This document shows, in pieces, positions 835 through 15,306 of a stretch of DNA of 64,000 nucleotides; within the stretch, counting starts at the first letter, position 1; the number at the start of each line of letters is the position of its first letter. The notes beneath the pieces are model-generated. The model saw only the letters and a list, made by a program, of their open reading frames with translations, was not told the DNA's origin and searched no databases. The stretch comes from Thalassolituus maritimus (GTDB taxonomy: Bacteria > Pseudomonadota > Gammaproteobacteria > Pseudomonadales > Oceanobacteraceae). The stretch lies in NCBI GenBank assembly GCA_913019975.1, contig CAJWBH010000017.1, forward strand, positions 1 through 64,000. The letters run 5' to 3'. The position numbers were made by a program, and so were the translations under genes.

Positions 835-1380
835 TCAGTTTTCTAAACGGTTAAAGCGGTTGGCGATATCGCTGCCGGTGAAGTTCGCGACCCAGCCTTC
901 TGGGTTGTTGAACAGGCGGATGGCGATAAAGTTCGGGTTCGGGCCCATGTCGAACCAATGGGTGGTGTTCGCGGGTACGCTGATAAGGTCGCCTTCGGTG
1001 CACAGCACTTCGTAGACTTTTTCGCCGATGTGCAGGGTGAACAGGCCTTCGCCGCCCACGAAGAAACGCACTTCGTCTTCGCTGTGGGTGTGTTCGCTCA
1101 GGAACTTCTGACGGAATTCGTTTTTCTGTGGGTGGTCGGCGCTGAGGCTCACCACGTCGACAGTCTGGTAGCCGTCTTCTTTCATCAGGCGGTCGATGTC
1201 TTTCTGGTAGGCCGCGATGACCTCTTCCTGTGGCGCACCCGGATCAAGTTCTGCGTCGGTTTCCCACTGTTCGTAACGCACACCAGCTTCTGCCAGTTTT
1301 GCGGCCATTTTTTCTTTGTTGTCGGTGGTGAACAACAGGTTGGTGACGTCGTGGTCTGTGTATACGCGGAGTACGCTCAT
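835..1380 (-). CDS. mtnD: Acireductone dioxygenase
   Basis: This 181-residue cupin enzyme oxidises acireductone. The Fe form gives the methionine precursor 2-keto-4-methylthiobutyrate and formate; the Ni form runs an off-pathway reaction. The metal ligands are visible in the cupin motif as His97, His99 and Glu103, with His141 further on, at almost the numbering known for the Klebsiella enzyme. A GAGG ribosome-binding site precedes the ATG. It lies between mtnB and mtnC with gaps of 7 bases on both sides, which indicates one operon. The metal actually bound cannot be read from sequence. Confidence 0.95.
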   Translation of the reverse strand: MSVLRVYTDHDVTNLLFTTDNKEKMAAKLAEAGVRYEQWETDAELDPGAPQEEVIAAYQKDIDRLMKEDGYQTVDVVSLSADHPQKNEFRQKFLSEHTHSEDEVRFFVGGEGLFTLHIGEKVYEVLCTEGDLISVPANTTHWFDMGPNPNFIAIRLFNNPEGWVANFTGSDIANRFNRLEN

Positions 1381-7937: not shown

Positions 7938-9305
7938 TCAGCTACGGTTGTTATTGCCGTTGCGACGACGACGCGGGCGACGGCGGCGTTGGCCATCATT
8001 GCGCTCGCCTGCGCCATCACTGCGTCTATCGTGTGAACGACTCGCCGCTGGTGGATGGTCTTTCTGGATTTCGGTCCAGAAATCACACAGCTCCTGCAGG
8101 TCTTCGCCGGACTGCTGACGTAGCAACAGGAAGTCGTAAGCGGCACGGAAGCGCGGATGCTGGGTCAGCTCGGCAGCTTTGCGGCTGCGCGTTTTCGGCA
8201 GGCGTAGCTGCATTTCCCAGATTTCACGCATCGGAATCGAGAAACGCTTCGGAATCGCGGTCGCTTTCACCTGTTCCTGAAGCACTTTGTCGGCGGCTTT
8301 CTGTAGGGCAGGGTGGGGGGCCATGCCATCGTCTTCGTACTTCTGACGCACTTTATTCAGTTGCGGCCAGAGCAGTGCAGCCAGGAAGAAATACGGTGTT
8401 ACCGACTTACCCGACTGAATACGGGCATCGGTGTTACGCATGGTGTTCTCGATCAGAGACACGGCGTAATCGTCTTCCTGCATGCGTTGTTCCGCAGACG
8501 GGAACAGAGGTTCGAACAGGTGATAGTCACGAAGCATGCGCACAGTATCCAGTGCGTTGCCTGCCAGAATAAGTTTCAGAGACTCTTCGAACAGACGAGC
8601 AGCAGGGATCTGAGTCATCAGTGGTGCCATGTCGCGAATCGGCGCGGCCGTTTTCGCTTCGATGTCGAAGCCAAGTTTTACCGCAAAGCGGATGGCACGG
8701 AGCATGCGCACCGGGTCTTCCCGATAACGTGTTGCCGGGTCACCGATGAGGCGGATCTGCTTGGCTTTGAGGTCATCCCAACCGCCAGCGTAAGAATGCA
8801 CACTGAAGTCATCGATGTTGTAGTAGAGGGCATTAATAGTGAAGTCGCGGCGCATCGCGTCTTCATCTTTGTTGCCGTAGACGTTATCGCGCAGGATCAT
8901 GCCCTGATCGCCCTGGCGGGATACTTTATCCGAATGCTCTTCAGAGGGTGGCGCGCGGAATGTCGCGACTTCAATGACCTCGCGGCCAAACACCACATGA
9001 ACCAACTTAAACCGACGACCAATCAGACGAGAGTTGCGGAACAGCGCATTAACCTGCTCTGGCGTCGCATCCGTCGACACATCGAAATCTTTAGGAGACA
9101 AACCCAGAAGGTTATCGCGGACACCTCCACCCACCAGATAGGCTCCATAGCCAGCTTTGCGCAGTCGATATAGCACCTTCAGCGCAGGCTCACTGATGTT
9201 TGTGCGGGAGATAGAATGCTCGTCGCGCGGAATCACACGTAGCTGTACATCGTCAGCATCGGCTTTCTGGCTGAACAGTTTTTTGACTCGGTTGATCAGG
9301 GTCAC
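7938..9305 (-). CDS. pcnB: Poly(A) polymerase I
   Basis: PcnB (455 residues) adds 3' poly(A) tails that promote RNA decay. The nucleotidyltransferase core is visible as LVGGGVRDNLLG followed by PKDFDVSTDATP, and the RNA/nucleotide-binding block RRDFTINALYYN comes later. The C-terminus is a low-complexity basic tail rich in Arg and Asn, as in other PcnB proteins, probably for RNA binding. The start is GTG (9305). It heads the folK-panBCD run. Gene order cbrB-crcZ-pcnB is known in Pseudomonas; here three sRNA units fill the crcZ position, and the terminator at 9413-9443 lies 108 bases upstream of the start. Confidence 0.95.
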   Translation of the reverse strand: MTLINRVKKLFSQKADADDVQLRVIPRDEHSISRTNISEPALKVLYRLRKAGYGAYLVGGGVRDNLLGLSPKDFDVSTDATPEQVNALFRNSRLIGRRFKLVHVVFGREVIEVATFRAPPSEEHSDKVSRQGDQGMILRDNVYGNKDEDAMRRDFTINALYYNIDDFSVHSYAGGWDDLKAKQIRLIGDPATRYREDPVRMLRAIRFAVKLGFDIEAKTAAPIRDMAPLMTQIPAARLFEESLKLILAGNALDTVRMLRDYHLFEPLFPSAEQRMQEDDYAVSLIENTMRNTDARIQSGKSVTPYFFLAALLWPQLNKVRQKYEDDGMAPHPALQKAADKVLQEQVKATAIPKRFSIPMREIWEMQLRLPKTRSRKAAELTQHPRFRAAYDFLLLRQQSGEDLQELCDFWTEIQKDHPPAASRSHDRRSDGAGERNDGQRRRRPRRRRNGNNNRS

Positions 9306-9409
9306 GATAGAAGTGGTTCTCTGGTTAATCTGCGAGCGAGTTTACAGCTAAGCCGGAGCGGACACAAAGTAAACAGTTGAGGCTGGCCCGGAGGGGTAGG
9401 TAACAGGCA

Positions 9410-9724
9410 AAGAAAAAGCCGCACTGCTTGGGGTCAGTGCGGCTTTCTGAGTCGGGTGGTGCCGGATGTTGTTATTGTTATGCCCAGCAACCATGTCGAC
9501 AGATGTTTTGAATGGGCATCCCCTGCCTCATTTTTTATTGTTGTTGTCGGCGCTCAATGCGCATTCAAAACATTTGTCACCGAGGCCTTTGTTATTTTTA
9601 TTGTTGGCCCTTCTTCTCTACCCGATCCCGTTGGAAGCACTTTGTTATTTTTATTGGTGCGCTTCGTTCTGAGATCTTGCTGAGGCGTCGCATTTGTTAT
9701 TTTTATAGTTTGCGTTGCTCTCTG
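9410..9724 (-). ncRNA. CrcZ-like small RNA, copy 1
   Basis: Predicted transcript of about 315 nt, running from a +1 inferred at 9724 (12 bases after the sigma-54 -12 element) to an intrinsic terminator. It holds five A-rich A-R-N repeats, given here as plus-strand positions: 9468-9480, 9531-9546, 9588-9605, 9641-9656 and 9693-9711. The clearest reads AACAAUAAAAAUAACAAA in RNA, six A-R-N triplets. Several motifs are bracketed by short complementary arms (GGCC/GGCC, GCAC/GTGC), which would show them in loops. Established for Pseudomonas: CrcZ lies between cbrB and pcnB, is CbrB/sigma-54 dependent and titrates Hfq/Crc through such motifs. Homology is inferred from position, promoter and motif, not from primary sequence identity. 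Confidence 0.85.
9413..9443 (-). terminator. Terminator of sRNA copy 1
   Basis: On the minus strand a perfect 9-bp stem (GCCGCACTG/CAGTGCGGC) with an 8-base loop is followed directly by TTTTTC. It ends sRNA copy 1 and would also insulate pcnB from its strong promoter. Confidence 0.9.
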
Positions 9725-9734
9725 ATGAATATAA

Positions 9735-9751
9735 AGCGAATGGTGTGCCAA
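9735..9751 (-). promoter_or_regulatory. Sigma-54 promoter, copy 1
   Basis: The minus strand reads TTGGCACACCATTCGCT. The invariant GG (-24) and GC (-12) are exactly 12 bases apart, and TTGGCAC is a perfect -24 block; the -12 block TCGC is slightly off TTGC. Predicted +1 is 9724. Confidence 0.88.
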
Positions 9752-9769
9752 CTTTTAAAAACCTATATA

Positions 9770-9883
9770 TATCAATAGCTTATGTTTCATTGCCCCGGTT
9801 TTTGAGTTGTGCTGTGGGCCGAAGTGTTACGAAAGATTACGTATTGTGTAACCCACAGGTAACAAACTTCAGGAAACGTAACA
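9770..9883 (-). promoter_or_regulatory. IHF-like site and CbrB-type boxes, copy 1
   Basis: A perfect match to the IHF consensus WATCAANNNNTTR lies at 9770-9782 (plus strand). Further upstream of the promoter are TGTTAC (9825-9830), GTAAC (9848-9852), GTAACA (9859-9864) and GTAACA (9878-9883). TGTTAC is 17 bases from the first GTAAC and 28 from the second, one helical turn apart. Paired TGTTAC/GTAACA half-sites are, as I recall, the CbrB recognition pattern in Pseudomonas; the assignment to CbrB is inference. Confidence 0.75.
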
Positions 9884-9981
9884 CTGAGTAAATGTTCAAT
9901 CAGCCTTACGCCGGATGCCACTGAAGAGTAAACCGTCGAGAGGTTATGAAGAGGTCGAATCGGGTAGGGCGAATTTCAGGC

Positions 9982-10214
9982 AATAAAAAAGCCGCAGGTG
10001 CGGCTTCTTGGATTCTTTCTGCAGTCTTGTTTGGACGCCTCTGTTATTTTTATTGTTAGCGGCCCAACTGTCTTATTTTTCTCTGATCTTCCGTACTTCT
10101 TATTGTTTGTGAAGGGGTCCTTCACTGGGCTTGCTGATTATTTTTATTGTTTGCGTTTCAGCGGCAAGCCCGGCAGTCCGACTTTGTTATTTTTATTTGT
10201 GTCGTCCTGCTGTA
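9982..10214 (-). ncRNA. CrcZ-like small RNA, copy 2
   Basis: Predicted transcript of about 233 nt from +1 near 10214 to a terminator. A-R-N motifs lie at plus-strand positions 10042-10058, 10070-10085 (weak), 10096-10111, 10136-10152 and 10183-10200. The fourth sits in the apical part of a strong hairpin: an 8-bp stem pairs 10127-10134 (GGGCTTGC) with 10164-10171 (GCAAGCCC). The primary sequence differs from copies 1 and 3 outside the motifs, but layout, strand, promoter type and terminator are the same, which indicates an old tandem duplication with diverging bodies. The role as an Hfq/Crc decoy is inferred from the Pseudomonas CrcZ model. Confidence 0.83.
9985..10004 (-). terminator. Terminator of sRNA copy 2
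   Basis: On the minus strand GCCGC-ACCT-GCGGC is followed by six T residues. The same caataaaaaa-gccgc phrase recurs at the end of copy 3, so the terminators of copies 2 and 3 are the most alike. Confidence 0.88.
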
Positions 10215-10224
10215 CGTAAATTAA

Positions 10225-10241
10225 TGCCAAGACCGTGCCAG
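10225..10241 (-). promoter_or_regulatory. Sigma-54 promoter, copy 2
   Basis: The minus strand reads CTGGCACGGTCTTGGCA. The -24 block CTGGCACG is a full match and the -24 GG to -12 GC spacing is exactly 12. Predicted +1 is 10214. Confidence 0.9.
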
Positions 10242-10259
10242 TTTTTAAAAGTCTTTATT

Positions 10260-10414
10260 TTTCAATGGTTTATGGTTTTTGTTGGCGGGCATTAGGCGCA
10301 TTTTTACAGAAAGTGTTACGTAACATTACGCTGACATATGTCTATTGGTAACAGTTGGGCGAGTGGGGTAACACTTTAGTCGAAGTGTTTTGCCTGGGGT
10401 AACAAAGACGTTAC
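10260..10414 (-). promoter_or_regulatory. IHF-like site and CbrB-type boxes, copy 2
   Basis: An IHF-like site with one mismatch lies at 10260-10272, at the same offset (34 bases) from the -12 element as in copy 1. Boxes follow: a perfect palindrome TGTTACGTAACA (10314-10325), then GTAACA at 10348-10353, 10368-10373 and 10399-10404, and GTTAC at 10410-10414. TGTTAC to the second GTAACA is 28 bases, as in copy 1. Confidence 0.75.
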
Positions 10415-10461
10415 CGATCGGGAATGATTGCTGAGCTAGTACTGATGCCTGACGAGCAGGC

Positions 10462-10724
10462 AATAAAAAAGCCGCTCAGGCGGCTCTTCAGGGGCGTTAT
10501 TCTTATTATTCTGTGCTGCCACAGGTGTCATCGTCGTTTTGAATAGGCAGAGCTTCTGTTTTTATTCTTATTCTGTCTCTGCTCATTCGAAACTAACAAT
10601 GGTGGCCATTGTCGTTTTTGTTATGAGGTTGGGAATTGCCGGCGCTTTATTATTTTTATTAGTGCGCCTCCCGCTTACCGGCAGTGTCTCTTTGTTATTT
10701 TTATTCATGGACACCAGCTCAGTA
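10462..10724 (-). ncRNA. CrcZ-like small RNA, copy 3
   Basis: Predicted transcript of about 263 nt from +1 near 10724 to a terminator. A-R-N motifs lie at plus-strand positions 10496-10513, 10556-10575, 10614-10624, 10646-10663 and 10691-10706. Three are framed by perfect arms: GCAGAG/CTCTGC (10547-10552 with 10577-10582), GGCGC/GCGCC (10641-10645 with 10664-10668) and GTGTC/GACAC (10684-10688 with 10710-10714). Two motifs contain AAG triplets (AAUAAGAAU), unlike copy 1. This unit is nearest to cbrB and could also receive read-through, as no separate cbrB terminator is visible before it. Confidence 0.83.
10465..10485 (-). terminator. Terminator of sRNA copy 3
   Basis: On the minus strand AGCCGC-CTGA-GCGGC is followed by six T residues. 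It would also stop transcripts that run on from cbrB. Confidence 0.88.
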
Positions 10725-10734
10725 CTGTCTATAA

Positions 10735-10751
10735 AGCCAAACCCGTGCCAA
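10735..10751 (-). promoter_or_regulatory. Sigma-54 promoter, copy 3
   Basis: The minus strand reads TTGGCACGGGTTTGGCT. Both blocks are close to consensus and the GG/GC spacing is exactly 12. Predicted +1 is 10724. Confidence 0.92.
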
Positions 10752-10769
10752 TTATTAAAAAATCAATAA

Positions 10770-10954
10770 AAACAACAACTTATGAAAATACACCTGTCTA
10801 TAATTATAGACAGTTAGACTAAAGTGTTACGAACTGTGAGCCATTAGGTAACAGTTTTGATACCTGAGTAACACTCTGTAACTGGATTCGTTACATGCGT
10901 AACAGAAAGGATGGAGGGCTGTCCTGAAAGGAATGTGTAACAGTGGGGGTAACA
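10770..10954 (-). promoter_or_regulatory. IHF-like site and CbrB-type boxes, copy 3
   Basis: An IHF-like site with one mismatch lies at 10770-10782, the same 34-base offset as in the other copies. Boxes: TGTTAC 10825-10830, GTAACA 10848-10853 (17 apart, as in copy 1), GTAACA 10868-10873, GTAAC 10878-10882, GTTAC 10890-10894, GTAACA 10899-10904, 10937-10942 and 10949-10954. This is the densest cluster and it reaches to 21 bases from the cbrB stop codon. Confidence 0.75.
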
Positions 10955-10975: not shown

Positions 10976-12379
10976 TCAGCGGCCACCTTTTTTGCGTGGA
11001 ATGCCAAGGCGCTGGCGACGTTCCCACAGCGATTTACGTGAAATTCCCAGCTTTTTAGCCAGTTCGGTCTCGGTCATGGACGCTTCGTTCTCGAGTACGA
11101 AGTGCACAAAGTAATCGTCCAATGACAGATCACCCTGCTGCTCGTCGTTCTGGTCCGTAGGCTGGTATGGGTTGTCTTCGACCAGGCTGTTACGCATGGA
11201 GTCACTGATGTAACGATCAGGGCTGACTTCGATGCCCAGCAGGTCAGGTTCAACCTCATCAGACTCAGCGAGGATGACAGAGCGCTCAACAGCGTTCTCC
11301 AGCTCGCGCACATTGCCGGGCCAGTGGTAATCACGAATCGCTTTCAACGAGGCATCGTTAAAGCACATCGGCGCCTGAGCCATTTTCTCACAGGCGCGTG
11401 CCAACATAGCGGTGGCAATTTCAATGACATCTTCACCGCGGTCACGCAGAGGCGGCAGGTGCAGTTCCATTACGTTGAGGCGGTAATACAGATCTTCCCG
11501 GAATTCGCCCTGTGAGGAGAGTTCTTTCAGGTTGCGGTGTGTCGCAGCGACGAGGCGTACATTAACCTTCTGGCTTTGCACTGAACCGACGCGGCGGATC
11601 TCACCTTCCTGCAGAACGCGCAACAGTCGCGCCTGAGCTTCAAGAGGAAGCTCACCGATCTCATCCAGAAACAGGGTGCCGCCATCAGCAGCTTCCACCA
11701 GGCCTTGGCGTTGAGCGGTCGCACCGGTAAATGCGCCTTTCTCATGGCCGAACAGTTCGGACTCAATAAGGGTTTCAGGAATCGCCGCGCAGTTTACGGA
11801 GATCAACGGCTTGTCAGCGCGTCGGCTCTGATTGTGGATCGCCTTCGCGACCAGCTCTTTACCAGTTCCTGATTCGCCCTGAATAAGCACAGTGGCATCA
11901 GTCGGAGCGACTTTCGCAATTTTTCGGAACAACAGCTGCATTGGCTCGCAGCTGCCGATAATCCCGGTCTCAGAGGAAGGCACTGGTTCTGGCAGGTCTT
12001 CGTGGGTGTCGGTAGCGGTGTCGTCGGTATCTGTGCGCATCGCCAGGATACGCTCGACCGCCTGAATCATTTCGTCGTGATCAAAGGGTTTGGCAATGTA
12101 ATCAACCGCGCCGAGCTTCATGGCATCGACGGCAGAACGCAGGCTGGCGTAGCTGGTCATGATAAGAACCGGCACTTTACCTGCGAGCTCAATAAGGTCA
12201 GTGCCATGGCCACCAGGCAGTCTCAGGTCGCTGATGATCATGTCATAGCTGGTCAGGTCGAGCGCTTTGGCGGCATCGACAGAGTCTGCTTCAGTCACTT
12301 CATGATTATGGCGAGTTAACAGGCGACGCACCGCGTTGCGGATAATAGCTTCGTCTTCTACGACCAGAATATGACTCAT
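10976..12379 (-). CDS. cbrB: Sigma-54 response regulator CbrB
   Basis: CbrB is an NtrC-family activator of 467 residues. It has a receiver domain (phospho-acceptor Asp51 in IISDLRLPG), a sigma-54 AAA+ domain with Walker A GESGTGKE (168-175) and the sigma-54 contact loop GAFTGA (215-220), and a C-terminal Fis-type helix-turn-helix (LAKKLGISRKSLWERRQRLG). In Pseudomonas it switches on crcZ and controls carbon/nitrogen balance. Its ATG overlaps the cbrA stop by 4 bases. Three sigma-54 promoters with repeated TGTTAC/GTAACA boxes lie directly downstream, the obvious local targets. Length is close to the Pseudomonas protein (about 478). Confidence 0.95.
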   Translation of the reverse strand: MSHILVVEDEAIIRNAVRRLLTRHNHEVTEADSVDAAKALDLTSYDMIISDLRLPGGHGTDLIELAGKVPVLIMTSYASLRSAVDAMKLGAVDYIAKPFDHDEMIQAVERILAMRTDTDDTATDTHEDLPEPVPSSETGIIGSCEPMQLLFRKIAKVAPTDATVLIQGESGTGKELVAKAIHNQSRRADKPLISVNCAAIPETLIESELFGHEKGAFTGATAQRQGLVEAADGGTLFLDEIGELPLEAQARLLRVLQEGEIRRVGSVQSQKVNVRLVAATHRNLKELSSQGEFREDLYYRLNVMELHLPPLRDRGEDVIEIATAMLARACEKMAQAPMCFNDASLKAIRDYHWPGNVRELENAVERSVILAESDEVEPDLLGIEVSPDRYISDSMRNSLVEDNPYQPTDQNDEQQGDLSLDDYFVHFVLENEASMTETELAKKLGISRKSLWERRQRLGIPRKKGGR

Positions 12380-15306
12380 GAATGGTGATCCGTTAACTCA
12401 GGTTGTTCACAACGTGGAAGACTGACTGTAACACAGGTTCCGCGTCCGCTGGCCAATGGGCTGTCGATTGCGATGTGACCGTAGTGCTCTTCAATGATGC
12501 TGTAGACCAGTGATAGTCCCAGTCCTGTCCCTTTACCCACGTCTTTGGTGGTAAAAAATGGCTCAAATATATGATCGAGCGTTTCCGCCGGAATGCCGTG
12601 TCCGTCATCGATCACGCGGATTCTGACCTGCTGTTCATCCATATCGCCCTGAACCCAGATGGTGCCGCCGGCTTCGGAGGCATCGCGCGCGTTACCCAGC
12701 AGGTTTACAAACACCTGCACCAGACGCTGAGCATCTCCCATAGTCATCAGTTCGGGCGGGCAGTCGTTAATAAAATTGATGTCCTGACTGCGTTTACTCA
12801 GCTTAAGAAGCTGGATGGCCTCGTTAATACAGTAGGTGGCGTCGACCGGCTCGTGTTCTGTGCTGTGATGACCGGCATGAGAGAAGTTCATCAGTGATTG
12901 CACGATTCGGGTAACACGCTTGGTCTGTTCCTGAATCTGGTCGGCCATTTCCAGTAATTCCGGGTTGTCGGTCTCGTAACGCATGCTTTGCGCCAGACAG
13001 TCGATCCCCGTGATTGGGTTGCCAATTTCGTGGGCGACGCCGGCAGCAAGACGACCGATCGACGCAAGGCGCTCACTGTGCATCAGTTCTTCTTCAAGGA
13101 GCTGAGTTTCCGTCTGGTCCTCAAGCAGAATAACGGTACCGCCGGGCTGGCTGCCGCTGGGTTGCAGTACGGCTTTGTGCATACCAAACCAGCGTGGACG
13201 ACCGGCACTGTCGACCCGGTGCTTGTGTTTGTGCATGGCGTGGCTGGTCAGGAAGTCGGTCAGCATCGGGCCCCAGGGAGAAGGCAGGCGACTGACGTGC
13301 GAGCCCGTCACTTCACGGGATTCGGTACCCGTCAGTTGCGACATGACCTGATTCCACATCAATACTTCGCCATCCGGAGCGAGTGAGCATACCCCCATAG
13401 GAAGGCGCTCAAGTGTCTGGCGGTGATAACGTCGCAGGTTATCGAGTTCGCTGGCAAGACCGCCCAGGCGGCTGTGGAAACCTTCAAGGCGCTGCTCCAG
13501 CTGGAAGATGTCTTCGGTCAGCTCAACGTCTTTCTGGAAGGGCAGGTAGCGGTTCACCAGATCGTGAGCAACCGTCGGGCCCATCAGACCTGAGAGGTTG
13601 GCCTCCAGTCGGGCGCGCAGGCGGCGCAGAGCGTAGGGTCTGTCTTCGTAGGACGGAAGCTCAAGATCATCTAACGCCTGATAGACTTCGCGTTCTGCGA
13701 CGTAGCGTCCCAATGACGGTGTTAACGCATTGATGACTTCATTGGTGTTTACCGCTTGCAGAGGCAGACGCGATGGGCGTGACACGTTATCAATCGAGCA
13801 GGCATCCGCTGCTGATTGCTCTTCGGCGCTGCGTTTGGTGCTCAGGCTGATAATGACAAACAGCAGGAAATTGATACCAATCGCAGTAATGGCCGACAAG
13901 TGCCAGTTGCCTTCATCGGTCGGCGGTAAGAAGAACGGAATTTCCCAGCCCAGTGCCAGCTCACAGAACGGAAGTAAAAGACCATAGATCCAGGTGACGG
14001 TGCCGACGACCAGACCAACGATAAAACCTTTGCGGTTGGACTGAGGCCAGTACAGTAAGCCAAGAATACCAGGCAGGAATTGCGAGCAGGCAACGAACCC
14101 GAGAATGCCCAGCTGACTGAGGTCGAGATCAGAGCCGACGATGCGGTAGAAGCCATACGCCAGTAACAGGATTACCCCAATCAGTGAGCGGCGCATCCAC
14201 AGCAACCAACGATAGAAATCGTAGCGTGGTGCAGGCTTATAAACCGGGAGCACCAGATGGTTGAGGAACATAGCCGCGGTCGACAGGGTGGTAACAATGA
14301 TGATGCCAGACGCAGCCGCCAGGCCGCCGACAAAAATCATCACAGTCAGAAATTCAGATTCCAGCGCCAGGCCAATGCCCAGTGCAAAGTAGGATGGGTC
14401 ACTGTCGACGTTCAGATAGTAGCCAGCCCACAGAATAGGTGGCACCGACAGGCTCATGATCAGCAGAAAGAGTGGAAAGCCCCAGCTCGCATGTTTCAGT
14501 GCGCTCGGGTTGGTATTCTCGGTGAAGGCCATATGGAACATGTGCGGCATCGCCACCGCAGCCGCAAAGAACATCAGCAGCAGGGTTCGCCATGGGCCAT
14601 CCTGAAGTCTTACCTGTTCGCGTGCGAGCTGGGCCTGATTGTCTGATAACCACTGTTCCAGACCGCCGACCTCAGGGAATACGCCAAACAGAACCACGCC
14701 GCCCAGGACAAGAATGGCGACCAGCTTAAGAACGGATTCAAAGGCAATGGCGAACACCAGCCCTTCGTGTTTCTCACGTGGAGACACATGGCGCGCACCA
14801 AACAGAATGGCGAACAGGATCATGATCAGACAGTAGGCCAGCGCCAGATTCTCAACCGGCCATTCGCGGTTCAGCAGGTAGAGTGTGTCGCCAATGGCGG
14901 TGATCTGCAGCGTCAGCATCGGAATCACAACCGCCAGCATGATCAGGGACACCGTGATCCCAGCCCATCGCGACCGGTAACGGAAGGCGAGTAAGTCAGC
15001 CAGAGAGCTTAGTTGATAGGTCCGGGTGATCTGTAGAATCGGTTTCAGCAGAATCGGGGACATGACAAAGGCCCCGGAAATACCCATGTAGTAGGCGAGG
15101 AAGCCATAACCGTATTGGTTAGCCAGACCGACAGAGCCGTAAAACGCCCAGGCGCTGGCGTAGACACCCAAAGACAGCACATACACCAGAGGGTGGCGTA
15201 CCCAGGCGCGGGGTAGCCAGTTGCGCTCGACGGCATAGGCCGCGAGAAAGAGAGAAAACAGATAGCCAACGCCGAGGAGCGCCAGCTGACCAAGGCTAAA
15301 CGTCAT
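12376..15306 (-). CDS. cbrA: Sensor kinase CbrA with transporter-like N-terminus
   Basis: From the ATG at 15306 the protein has 976 residues, near the 983 of Pseudomonas CbrA. The first half, roughly residues 1-500, is a sodium/solute symporter (SSS)-like multi-helix membrane region. A linker, a PAS-like segment (LPMGVCSLAPDGEVLMWN) and a histidine kinase core follow, with the H-box histidine at about residue 759 (GVAHEIGNP) and an HATPase C-terminus (GKGTGLGLSL). The start at 15306 has an AAGGA ribosome-binding site and overlaps the upstream small ORF by 11 bases; the longer ORF start at 15348 is rejected. Partner of CbrB. The signal it senses is not evident from sequence. Confidence 0.95.
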   Translation of the reverse strand: MTFSLGQLALLGVGYLFSLFLAAYAVERNWLPRAWVRHPLVYVLSLGVYASAWAFYGSVGLANQYGYGFLAYYMGISGAFVMSPILLKPILQITRTYQLSSLADLLAFRYRSRWAGITVSLIMLAVVIPMLTLQITAIGDTLYLLNREWPVENLALAYCLIMILFAILFGARHVSPREKHEGLVFAIAFESVLKLVAILVLGGVVLFGVFPEVGGLEQWLSDNQAQLAREQVRLQDGPWRTLLLMFFAAAVAMPHMFHMAFTENTNPSALKHASWGFPLFLLIMSLSVPPILWAGYYLNVDSDPSYFALGIGLALESEFLTVMIFVGGLAAASGIIIVTTLSTAAMFLNHLVLPVYKPAPRYDFYRWLLWMRRSLIGVILLLAYGFYRIVGSDLDLSQLGILGFVACSQFLPGILGLLYWPQSNRKGFIVGLVVGTVTWIYGLLLPFCELALGWEIPFFLPPTDEGNWHLSAITAIGINFLLFVIISLSTKRSAEEQSAADACSIDNVSRPSRLPLQAVNTNEVINALTPSLGRYVAEREVYQALDDLELPSYEDRPYALRRLRARLEANLSGLMGPTVAHDLVNRYLPFQKDVELTEDIFQLEQRLEGFHSRLGGLASELDNLRRYHRQTLERLPMGVCSLAPDGEVLMWNQVMSQLTGTESREVTGSHVSRLPSPWGPMLTDFLTSHAMHKHKHRVDSAGRPRWFGMHKAVLQPSGSQPGGTVILLEDQTETQLLEEELMHSERLASIGRLAAGVAHEIGNPITGIDCLAQSMRYETDNPELLEMADQIQEQTKRVTRIVQSLMNFSHAGHHSTEHEPVDATYCINEAIQLLKLSKRSQDINFINDCPPELMTMGDAQRLVQVFVNLLGNARDASEAGGTIWVQGDMDEQQVRIRVIDDGHGIPAETLDHIFEPFFTTKDVGKGTGLGLSLVYSIIEEHYGHIAIDSPLASGRGTCVTVSLPRCEQPELTDHHS

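Follow-up and report, generated by a model that had tools for sequence, protein, structure and literature searches.

The cbrB-pcnB interval of Thalassolituus maritimus carries three tandem units that resemble the gene for CrcZ, the small RNA encoded singly at the corresponding place in Pseudomonas. The interval was analyzed within the first 64,000 nucleotides (nt) of contig CAJWBH010000017.1 (the window), where the array occupies positions 9,408 to 10,954 of the minus strand, in a 1.67-kb gap without an evident gene and in the same orientation as both flanking genes. Each unit has half-sites for the activator CbrB, an integration host factor (IHF)-like site, a sigma-54 promoter, a body with runs of A-R-N triplets (R, purine; N, any nucleotide), and a terminator. 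The array is very probably a multigene decoy for Hfq and Crc, driven by CbrB and sigma-54 and enlarged by tandem duplication. The units are the positional counterpart of CrcZ and are CrcZ-like, but they are not CrcZ by the Rfam model. According to the Pseudomonas model, Hfq, together with Crc, binds catabolic mRNAs at their A-rich leaders and is removed by CrcZ when CbrAB is active (PMC4063720, PMC6422490, PMC9890229; PubMed Central [PMC] accessions here and below refer to excerpts of the articles). CrcZ of P. aeruginosa contains six A-rich stretches and titrates Hfq (PMC4063720).

Anatomy of the three units

The three promoters are spaced 510 and 490 bp apart and all keep GG-N10-GC (Table 1). 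Estimated transcript starts at 10724, 10214, and 9724 coincide with those given in an initial annotation of this DNA, which had described three complete units on one strand with a period of about 490 to 510 bases, as we also find. The estimated RNAs are 264, 235, and 317 nt long for units 1, 2, and 3, and contain four, four, and five runs of at least four A-R-N triplets, 13 in total. Identity is 56% between units 1 and 2, 62% between units 1 and 3, and 52% between units 2 and 3, with the same elements in each, in agreement with the earlier description of diverged bodies within a fixed layout. The IHF consensus is WATCAANNNNTTR, and its best match in the 75 nt before each promoter has one, one, and zero mismatches in units 1, 2, and 3. 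A GTAACA half-site begins 80, 79, and 80 nt ahead of the same promoters, TGTTAC and GTAACA being the CbrB subsites studied in P. putida (PMC6296734). The terminators consist of a GC hairpin and a T tract, and for all three units they are present both in the RNA folds and in a custom hairpin scan, which also gave one extra hairpin upstream of promoter 1.

The promoter pattern alone does not exceed chance, with six matches in the window, 3.46 expected, and 13 of 100 shuffles reaching six; it is the combination of promoter and A-rich clusters that sets the array apart. We fixed the definition of a unit as a sigma-54 promoter with at least two AANAANAA clusters; all unit counts are lower bounds. 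By this definition there are three units in the interval, none on its opposite strand, and none on either strand of the rest of the window; among 2000 first-order Markov resamples of the interval, six contained one unit and none contained two. Words within one mismatch of AATAAAAATAAYAA occur nine times in the window (0.01 expected), all of them in the interval, eight on the array strand and one on the opposite strand. The 3.49-Mb genome contains four copies of AATAAAAATAACAA, all within the array interval, and the interval also holds five of the genome's six exact matches to AAYAAAAAYAACAA, one of the five on the opposite strand.

Arrays across the family and the order

CbrB is encoded in 54 of 55 relatives, in 44 of 44 members of the host family, and in 131 of 165 genomes sampled across the order (matches at E 1e-130 or better in the order sample), T. 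maritimus being counted each time. Intervals were read in 43 family members besides T. maritimus and in 80 genomes of other families. From the 131 CbrB-positive order genomes, those read were six family members, 18 others, and 60 selected manually, with one to several from each family; the 18 and the 60, with G035 and G044, make up the 80. The tallies exclude genomes in which pcnB was not found or a contig ended (G005, G015, G057, G058, and ten from other families). Among the 40 family loci with both cbrB and pcnB visible, there are two units in 23, three in 15, and four in two, and the 70 loci from 34 other families have one unit in 53, two in eight, and none in nine. In 29 of these 34 families with a readable interval, cbrB is followed by one or more A-rich sigma-54 units. 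The two-unit loci outside the host family belong to five families (f6, f12, f29, f37, and f45), and duplication has therefore probably occurred more than once. Because five single-contig genomes (G007, G017, G018, G023, and G024) have two or three units each, the arrays are unlikely to be assembly artifacts.

The upstream elements recur throughout the family. Both exact CbrB half-sites are present within 200 nt upstream of 84 of the 99 family units, compared with 0.2 units expected from composition-preserving shuffles, and 52 of the 99 have a perfect IHF consensus within the 75 nt preceding the promoter (0.6 expected). GTAACA is placed at -78 to -81 and TGTTAC at approximately -102/-103, -113/-114, -121 to -124, and -132/-133, with the IHF site between the half-sites and the promoter. 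A-R-N runs per locus have a median of nine in the family (range 7 to 17; 40 loci), whereas six single-unit Pseudomonadaceae loci have four to six; since the T. maritimus array has 13, we read it as a decoy of probably enlarged capacity.

The relationships among units suggest how the arrays arose. Units 3 and 4 of G003 are 99.4% identical over 322 nt, and units 2 and 3 are 79% identical in G055 and 75% identical in G056. The best match in another genus is a last unit for 30 of 40 last units, a first unit for 25 of 40 first units, and a last unit for 13 of 19 middle units. The simplest history consistent with these sequences starts from two ancestral units, to which tandem duplication added others in several genera.

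The proteins with which such RNAs would act are also present. CbrA, CbrB, RpoN, Hfq, and Crc are all encoded in the T. maritimus genome, where crc is flanked by the RNase PH and pyrE genes and its product has Crc (4jg3, E 4.1e-70) as its best PDB match. Crc-like proteins (E 1e-45 or better) are found in 51 of the 55 relatives and Hfq in 54.

We also note that all four genomes read from family f42 (G084, G139, G162, and G184) have cbrB-pcnB gaps of 556 to 707 bp with no unit by our definition, which may reflect either loss of the RNA or a form that falls outside the definition.

Predicted RNA structure

In predicted folds of the three T. maritimus RNAs, the A-R-N runs lie mostly inside hairpin loops, and all five runs of unit 3 are unpaired in such loops. 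With one genome per genus (eight genera), 57 of 81 runs are predicted to lie in hairpin loops, compared with 21% when the flanks are shuffled; 36 of the 57 are in loops of 17 to 19 nt (18% in controls), with a mode of 18 nt. Six A-R-N triplets have this length, and an 18-nt RNA made up of them occupies all six pockets on the distal face of an Hfq hexamer, where it contacts Crc and forms its platform (PMC6422490). An alignment-free count of stems of at least 5 bp flanking the runs gives a similar picture: 25 of 77 runs in the one-genome-per-genus set, with 8.1 expected by permutation and none of 1000 permutations reaching 25, and 4 of 13 runs in T. maritimus itself (1.1 expected, reached by 45 of 3000). 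We rely on the one-genome-per-genus version, as the count over the whole family (133 of 402, 40.2 expected) overcounts related sequences. The loop tendency is weaker elsewhere, with 92 of 276 runs in other families (15% in controls) and 10 of 31 in Pseudomonadaceae (17% in controls), the latter represented in the structure tests by L010, L013, and family f21. Flank stems are in excess in other families (43 of 233, 18.2 by permutation), with no excess in Pseudomonadaceae (1 of 26, 0.6 by permutation).

Covariation was evaluated in an alignment of 19 of the 40 last units, drawn from genera g1, g4, g5, g7, and g8, with G008 and genera g2, g3, and g6 omitted. RNAalifold recovered hairpin 1, a long stem around the fourth A-R-N site, and the terminator, and these three helices are paired in 95.1% of cells. 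Compensatory double changes occupy 44 cells, compared with 11.8 in shuffles (none of 500 reaching 44), and structures slid along the alignment give at most 11. The terminator is paired in 98% of cells, its helix being without a double change.

Proposed mechanism

The interval, we propose, holds genes for three separate small RNAs of approximately 235 to 317 nt, each of which would be transcribed by sigma-54 RNA polymerase once CbrB occupies the half-sites and IHF bends the intervening DNA. Each RNA would form a chain of short hairpins displaying A-R-N runs in their loops, and the loops would often be close to 18 nt in length, matching the footprint of the distal face of one Hfq hexamer. On poor carbon sources, CbrB would activate all three units, and the 13 sites would titrate Hfq, with Crc, off catabolic mRNA leaders. 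Tandem duplication from an ancestral unit pair would allow decoy capacity to evolve by copy number. We infer that the array provides a larger or graded decoy pool, and the switch in carbon preference seems to have evolved through duplication of a decoy RNA gene. The broader proposition strikes us as an even call: that a single CrcZ has been replaced throughout this family of marine bacteria by two to four separately promoted RNAs with loops the size of an Hfq hexamer (six A-R-N triplets), giving a stepwise pool of 7 to 17 A-R-N sites under one activator, and that control of the CbrAB-CrcZ type extends across the order instead of being limited to Pseudomonadaceae.

Alternative interpretations

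The units may instead have diverged into separate trans-acting, base-pairing small RNAs with different targets, for which Hfq would be contacted only as a chaperone. This is the strongest of the alternatives, and it has some appeal, in that the bodies are just 52 to 62% identical, first and last units look like distinct lineages by their between-genus matches, and a long stem is kept across the 19 aligned last units. We nonetheless consider it unlikely, as the most conserved parts of those last units are the A-R-N loops, their stems, and the terminator, whereas the linkers diverge, and four or five runs in each T. maritimus unit exceed what one chaperone contact needs. A second alternative is that one unit, probably the last, does all of the work and the others are decaying duplicates. 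The near-identical duplicate in G003 could be so viewed, as could the second unit of G008 and the first of G055, which are site-poor with two clusters each. However, all three T. maritimus units retain promoter, half-sites, four or five runs, and terminator despite their diverged bodies, at least two units are present in all 40 intact family loci, and first units best match the first units of other genera in 25 of 40 cases, making this explanation quite improbable.

Hardly credible is the suggestion that the units are pcnB leaders or short-peptide genes: the interval immediately precedes pcnB in the same orientation, units 1, 2, and 3 have open frames of 43, 49, and 33 codons, those of units 2 and 3 have the same start in G001 and G004, the two closest relatives, and a ATGACACCTGTGGCAG stretch in unit 1 is common to T. 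maritimus (G000), G004, G006, G002, and G003, but a terminator closes every unit, the longest frames in G002, G003, and G006 differ from those of T. maritimus, and some run through the terminator. In these three genomes the frame shifts within about 11 codons after the shared ATG. We rejected the peptide reading since the frames are not kept there and it is instead the base pairs that co-vary.

Returning to the interpretation of the array as an Hfq/Crc decoy, several observations weigh against it. The DNA elements, their conservation and duplication, the covarying structure, and the partner genes can be read from the genomes, but transcription, dependence on CbrB and RpoN, binding of Hfq and Crc, and any physiological effect are steps that we infer. 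The exact half-site pair is missing in 15 of the 99 family units, and the site-poor units of G008 and G055 count here also. None of the three GC hairpins was listed by a standard terminator scanner, which we think is explained by upstream A's pairing into the T tract. Structurally, 24 of the 81 runs fall outside hairpin loops, G011 gives a weak result in the flank-stem test (the observed count is attained in 65 of 500 permutations), and flank stems are at chance in G019, with none of eight runs having 5 bp. The structure scored for covariation had itself been derived from the alignment used for the scoring, which favors it and flatters the percentage paired, and the alignment consists of related genomes. 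RNAalifold did not recover hairpins 2 and 3 in the 19-unit alignment; their stems differ in sequence and register among genera, and these hairpins were evaluated without an alignment. Residue 25 of Hfq, a tyrosine on the distal face of the P. aeruginosa protein, is phenylalanine in 28 of the 30 Hfq proteins read. Finally, the Rfam CrcZ model (RF01675) gives at best 15.1 bits in the interval, below its gathering cut-off of 95, and is above the cut-off in none of 16 further loci (seven of the host family and nine of other families).

As to the distribution of the Hfq residue (loci L222 and L236-L264), phenylalanine is carried by 26 members of the host family and by G047 and G054, and tyrosine by G037 and G050. 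The change is thus not tied to the arrays.

Relation to CrcZ and other regulatory RNAs

The same CrcZ model scores 349.6 bits in Pseudomonas fildesensis, 272.1 bits in Serpens, and 307 to 334 bits in four of four loci of family f21; Gilvimarinus (L012), at 36.3 bits, is below the cut-off. Against Rfam as a whole, the window has no match at the gathering threshold, and at a relaxed threshold has 11 weak ones, which include CrcZ at 15.1 and 10.8 bits together with evident chance matches to plant and human families. A CrcZ search of the entire T. maritimus genome yielded weak matches only and is uninformative, as nine of 14 control genomes also match. By the covariance model to which the initial annotation had pointed, the units are thus not CrcZ, although its identification of three CrcZ-like RNAs of the CbrB/sigma-54 type is supported by synteny, promoter anatomy, A-R-N content, conservation, covarying structure, and partners.

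The array shares with Pseudomonas CrcZ its place between cbrB and pcnB, the CbrB half-sites, IHF site, and sigma-54 promoter, several A-R-N runs, a terminator, and the partners Hfq, Crc, CbrAB, and RpoN. It differs in that CrcZ is single in Pseudomonas, whereas the host family has two to four tandem copies with most A-R-N runs in predicted hairpin loops, unlike CrcZ. CrcY and CrcX of Pseudomonas and Azotobacter are likewise extra, CbrB-dependent, paralogous decoy RNAs that provide more than one copy per genome, but they are dispersed, with CrcX away from the crcZ locus, while the T. maritimus copies are tandem within it. CrcY is a second copy at a separate locus in P. putida and A. vinelandii (PMC6292655), and the CrcZ RNA, at 407 nt, is longer than the T. 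maritimus RNAs (PMC4063720). No full-length dispersed copy was found in the T. maritimus genome with model R1, which was trained on the three array units themselves and applied to 150 of 661 first-look candidates: the three full-length matches are the array itself, and the other 11 of 14 are partial, five in the array and six elsewhere in the genome.

Tandem paralogous small RNAs under one regulator are familiar from PrrF1/PrrF2, OmrA/OmrB, and LhrC1-5, but those act mainly by base pairing, whereas the array RNAs look like protein decoys. RsmY and RsmZ sequester a global translational regulator, RsmA/CsrA, through motifs repeated in hairpin loops; the idea of loop display is the same, and the array differs in the protein (Hfq/Crc), the motif (A-R-N), and the regulator (CbrAB). 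In excerpts of the open-licence PMC literature, we found neither tandem CrcZ genes nor CrcZ outside Pseudomonas and Azotobacter. Judged by that literature, a CrcZ-type RNA is already known, and its tandem multicopy form in the cbrB-pcnB interval appears to be new.

These comparisons bear on several questions. A 2022 review describes CbrAB as unique to Pseudomonadaceae and the gene order only in Pseudomonas and Azotobacter (PMC8871633), a limit with which the order-wide tallies of cbrB (131 of 165 genomes) and of A-rich sigma-54 units (29 of 34 other families) contrast. The arrays amount to a natural dosage series, from one to four units, bearing on the amount of decoy that the Hfq/Crc switch needs, and, for structural studies of Hfq-Crc, the roughly 18-nt hairpin loops provide a small RNA of defined form. 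Thalassolituus includes hydrocarbon degraders, according to excerpts of the literature, and control of catabolic genes in the genus is of practical interest.

Neighboring genes and additional observations

The minus-strand gene order is gluQ, cbrA, cbrB, the array-bearing gap, pcnB, folK, panB, and panC. The CbrB protein has receiver, sigma-54 AAA+, and lid domains. CbrA matches PDB entry 10ED over residues 1 to 590 (E 7.2e-209), 10ED being the SLC5-STAC structure of Pseudomonas CbrXA (PMC13022988). Among the best 25 NCBIfam families for each protein, no equivalog above cut-off names CbrA or CbrB, and their identity is based on synteny, orthology, and 10ED. The window is part of a contig of the 3.49-Mb genome, which shares one genus with G007.

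Table 1. Coordinates of the array elements, flanking genes, and related matches in other genomes
Feature	Position	Strand	Remarks
Unit 1 CbrB half-sites	10825..10954	-	TGTTAC starts 10954, 10942, 10904, 10873, 10853; GTAACA 10830
Unit 1 AT-rich IHF-like region	10753..10825	-	Best consensus match, 1 mismatch
Unit 1 sigma-54 promoter	10735..10750	-	TGGCACGGGTTTGGCT
Unit 1 RNA (estimated)	10461..10724	-	A-R-N runs 10705-10691, 10660-10646, 10572-10552, 10510-10496
Unit 1 intrinsic terminator	10465..10485	-	
Unit 2 CbrB half-sites	10314..10404	-	TGTTAC starts 10404, 10373, 10353, 10325; GTAACA 10319
Unit 2 IHF-like region	10243..10315	-	Best consensus match, 1 mismatch
Unit 2 sigma-54 promoter	10225..10240	-	TGGCACGGTCTTGGCA
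Unit 2 RNA (estimated)	9980..10214	-	A-R-N runs 10197-10183, 10151-10137, 10107-10096, 10057-10040
Unit 2 intrinsic terminator	9985..10005	-	
Unit 3 CbrB half-sites	9825..9883	-	TGTTAC starts 9883, 9864; GTAACA 9830
Unit 3 IHF region	9753..9825	-	Perfect consensus match
Unit 3 sigma-54 promoter	9735..9750	-	TGGCACACCATTCGCT
Unit 3 RNA (estimated)	9408..9724	-	A-R-N runs 9704-9693, 9655-9641, 9605-9588, 9545-9531, 9479-9468
Unit 3 long conserved stem	9498..9578	-	TTTTGAAT/ATTCAAAA type; encloses fourth A-R-N site
Unit 3 intrinsic terminator	9412..9446	-	
cbrB	10976..12379	-	NtrC-type sigma-54 response regulator (activator); Response_reg + Sigma54_activat
cbrA	12376..15303	-	SLC5-type sensor kinase; start codon not fixed; best PDB chain 10ed
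pcnB	7938..9305	-	Poly(A) polymerase, downstream flank; TIGR01942, 521.7 bits
P36 matches, Pseudomonadaceae loci	L010 6477-6537, L177 3886-3948, L189 327-387, L200 328-388		Rfam RF01679
Distant promoter + A-rich matches, genus g3	G010:C1:2155541, G021:C114:5599, G025:C30:1284, G029:C16:39429, G033:C2:770654		E 3e-6 to 1.2e-4

A candidate target was encountered by chance in a search for A-rich promoters. An A-R-N run, AATAACAACAAAAAA, lies just before or over the ribosome-binding region of a phenol hydroxylase gene in the T. maritimus genome (PF02332, 210.8 bits; L230 [G000:C21], 1034-1070, minus strand). The gene is downstream of a sigma-54-like promoter that diverges from what, by eye, resembles the gene for an NtrC-type regulator, and the run is much like the amiE leader quoted in PMC6422490. 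The gene is a candidate for regulation by Hfq and Crc, but as a single case it proves nothing by itself.

In four Pseudomonadaceae loci, the Rfam small RNA P36 matches just after cbrB and before CrcZ, where CbrB half-sites are expected. The Crc match of G031 is in two pieces (G031:C17:48343-49115), reflecting either a sequencing error or a broken gene. No pcnB was found within 5 kb of cbrB in G015, where one unit is kept beside cbrB and a second strong unit match (E 2.1e-11) is located on the opposite strand at a distance of about 12 kb (G015:C1:386411 and 398090); this may be the last unit, relocated together with pcnB. Five of the eight genomes searched in genus g3 have a promoter with an A-rich match on another contig or far from cbrB, possibly a dispersed CrcY-like copy.

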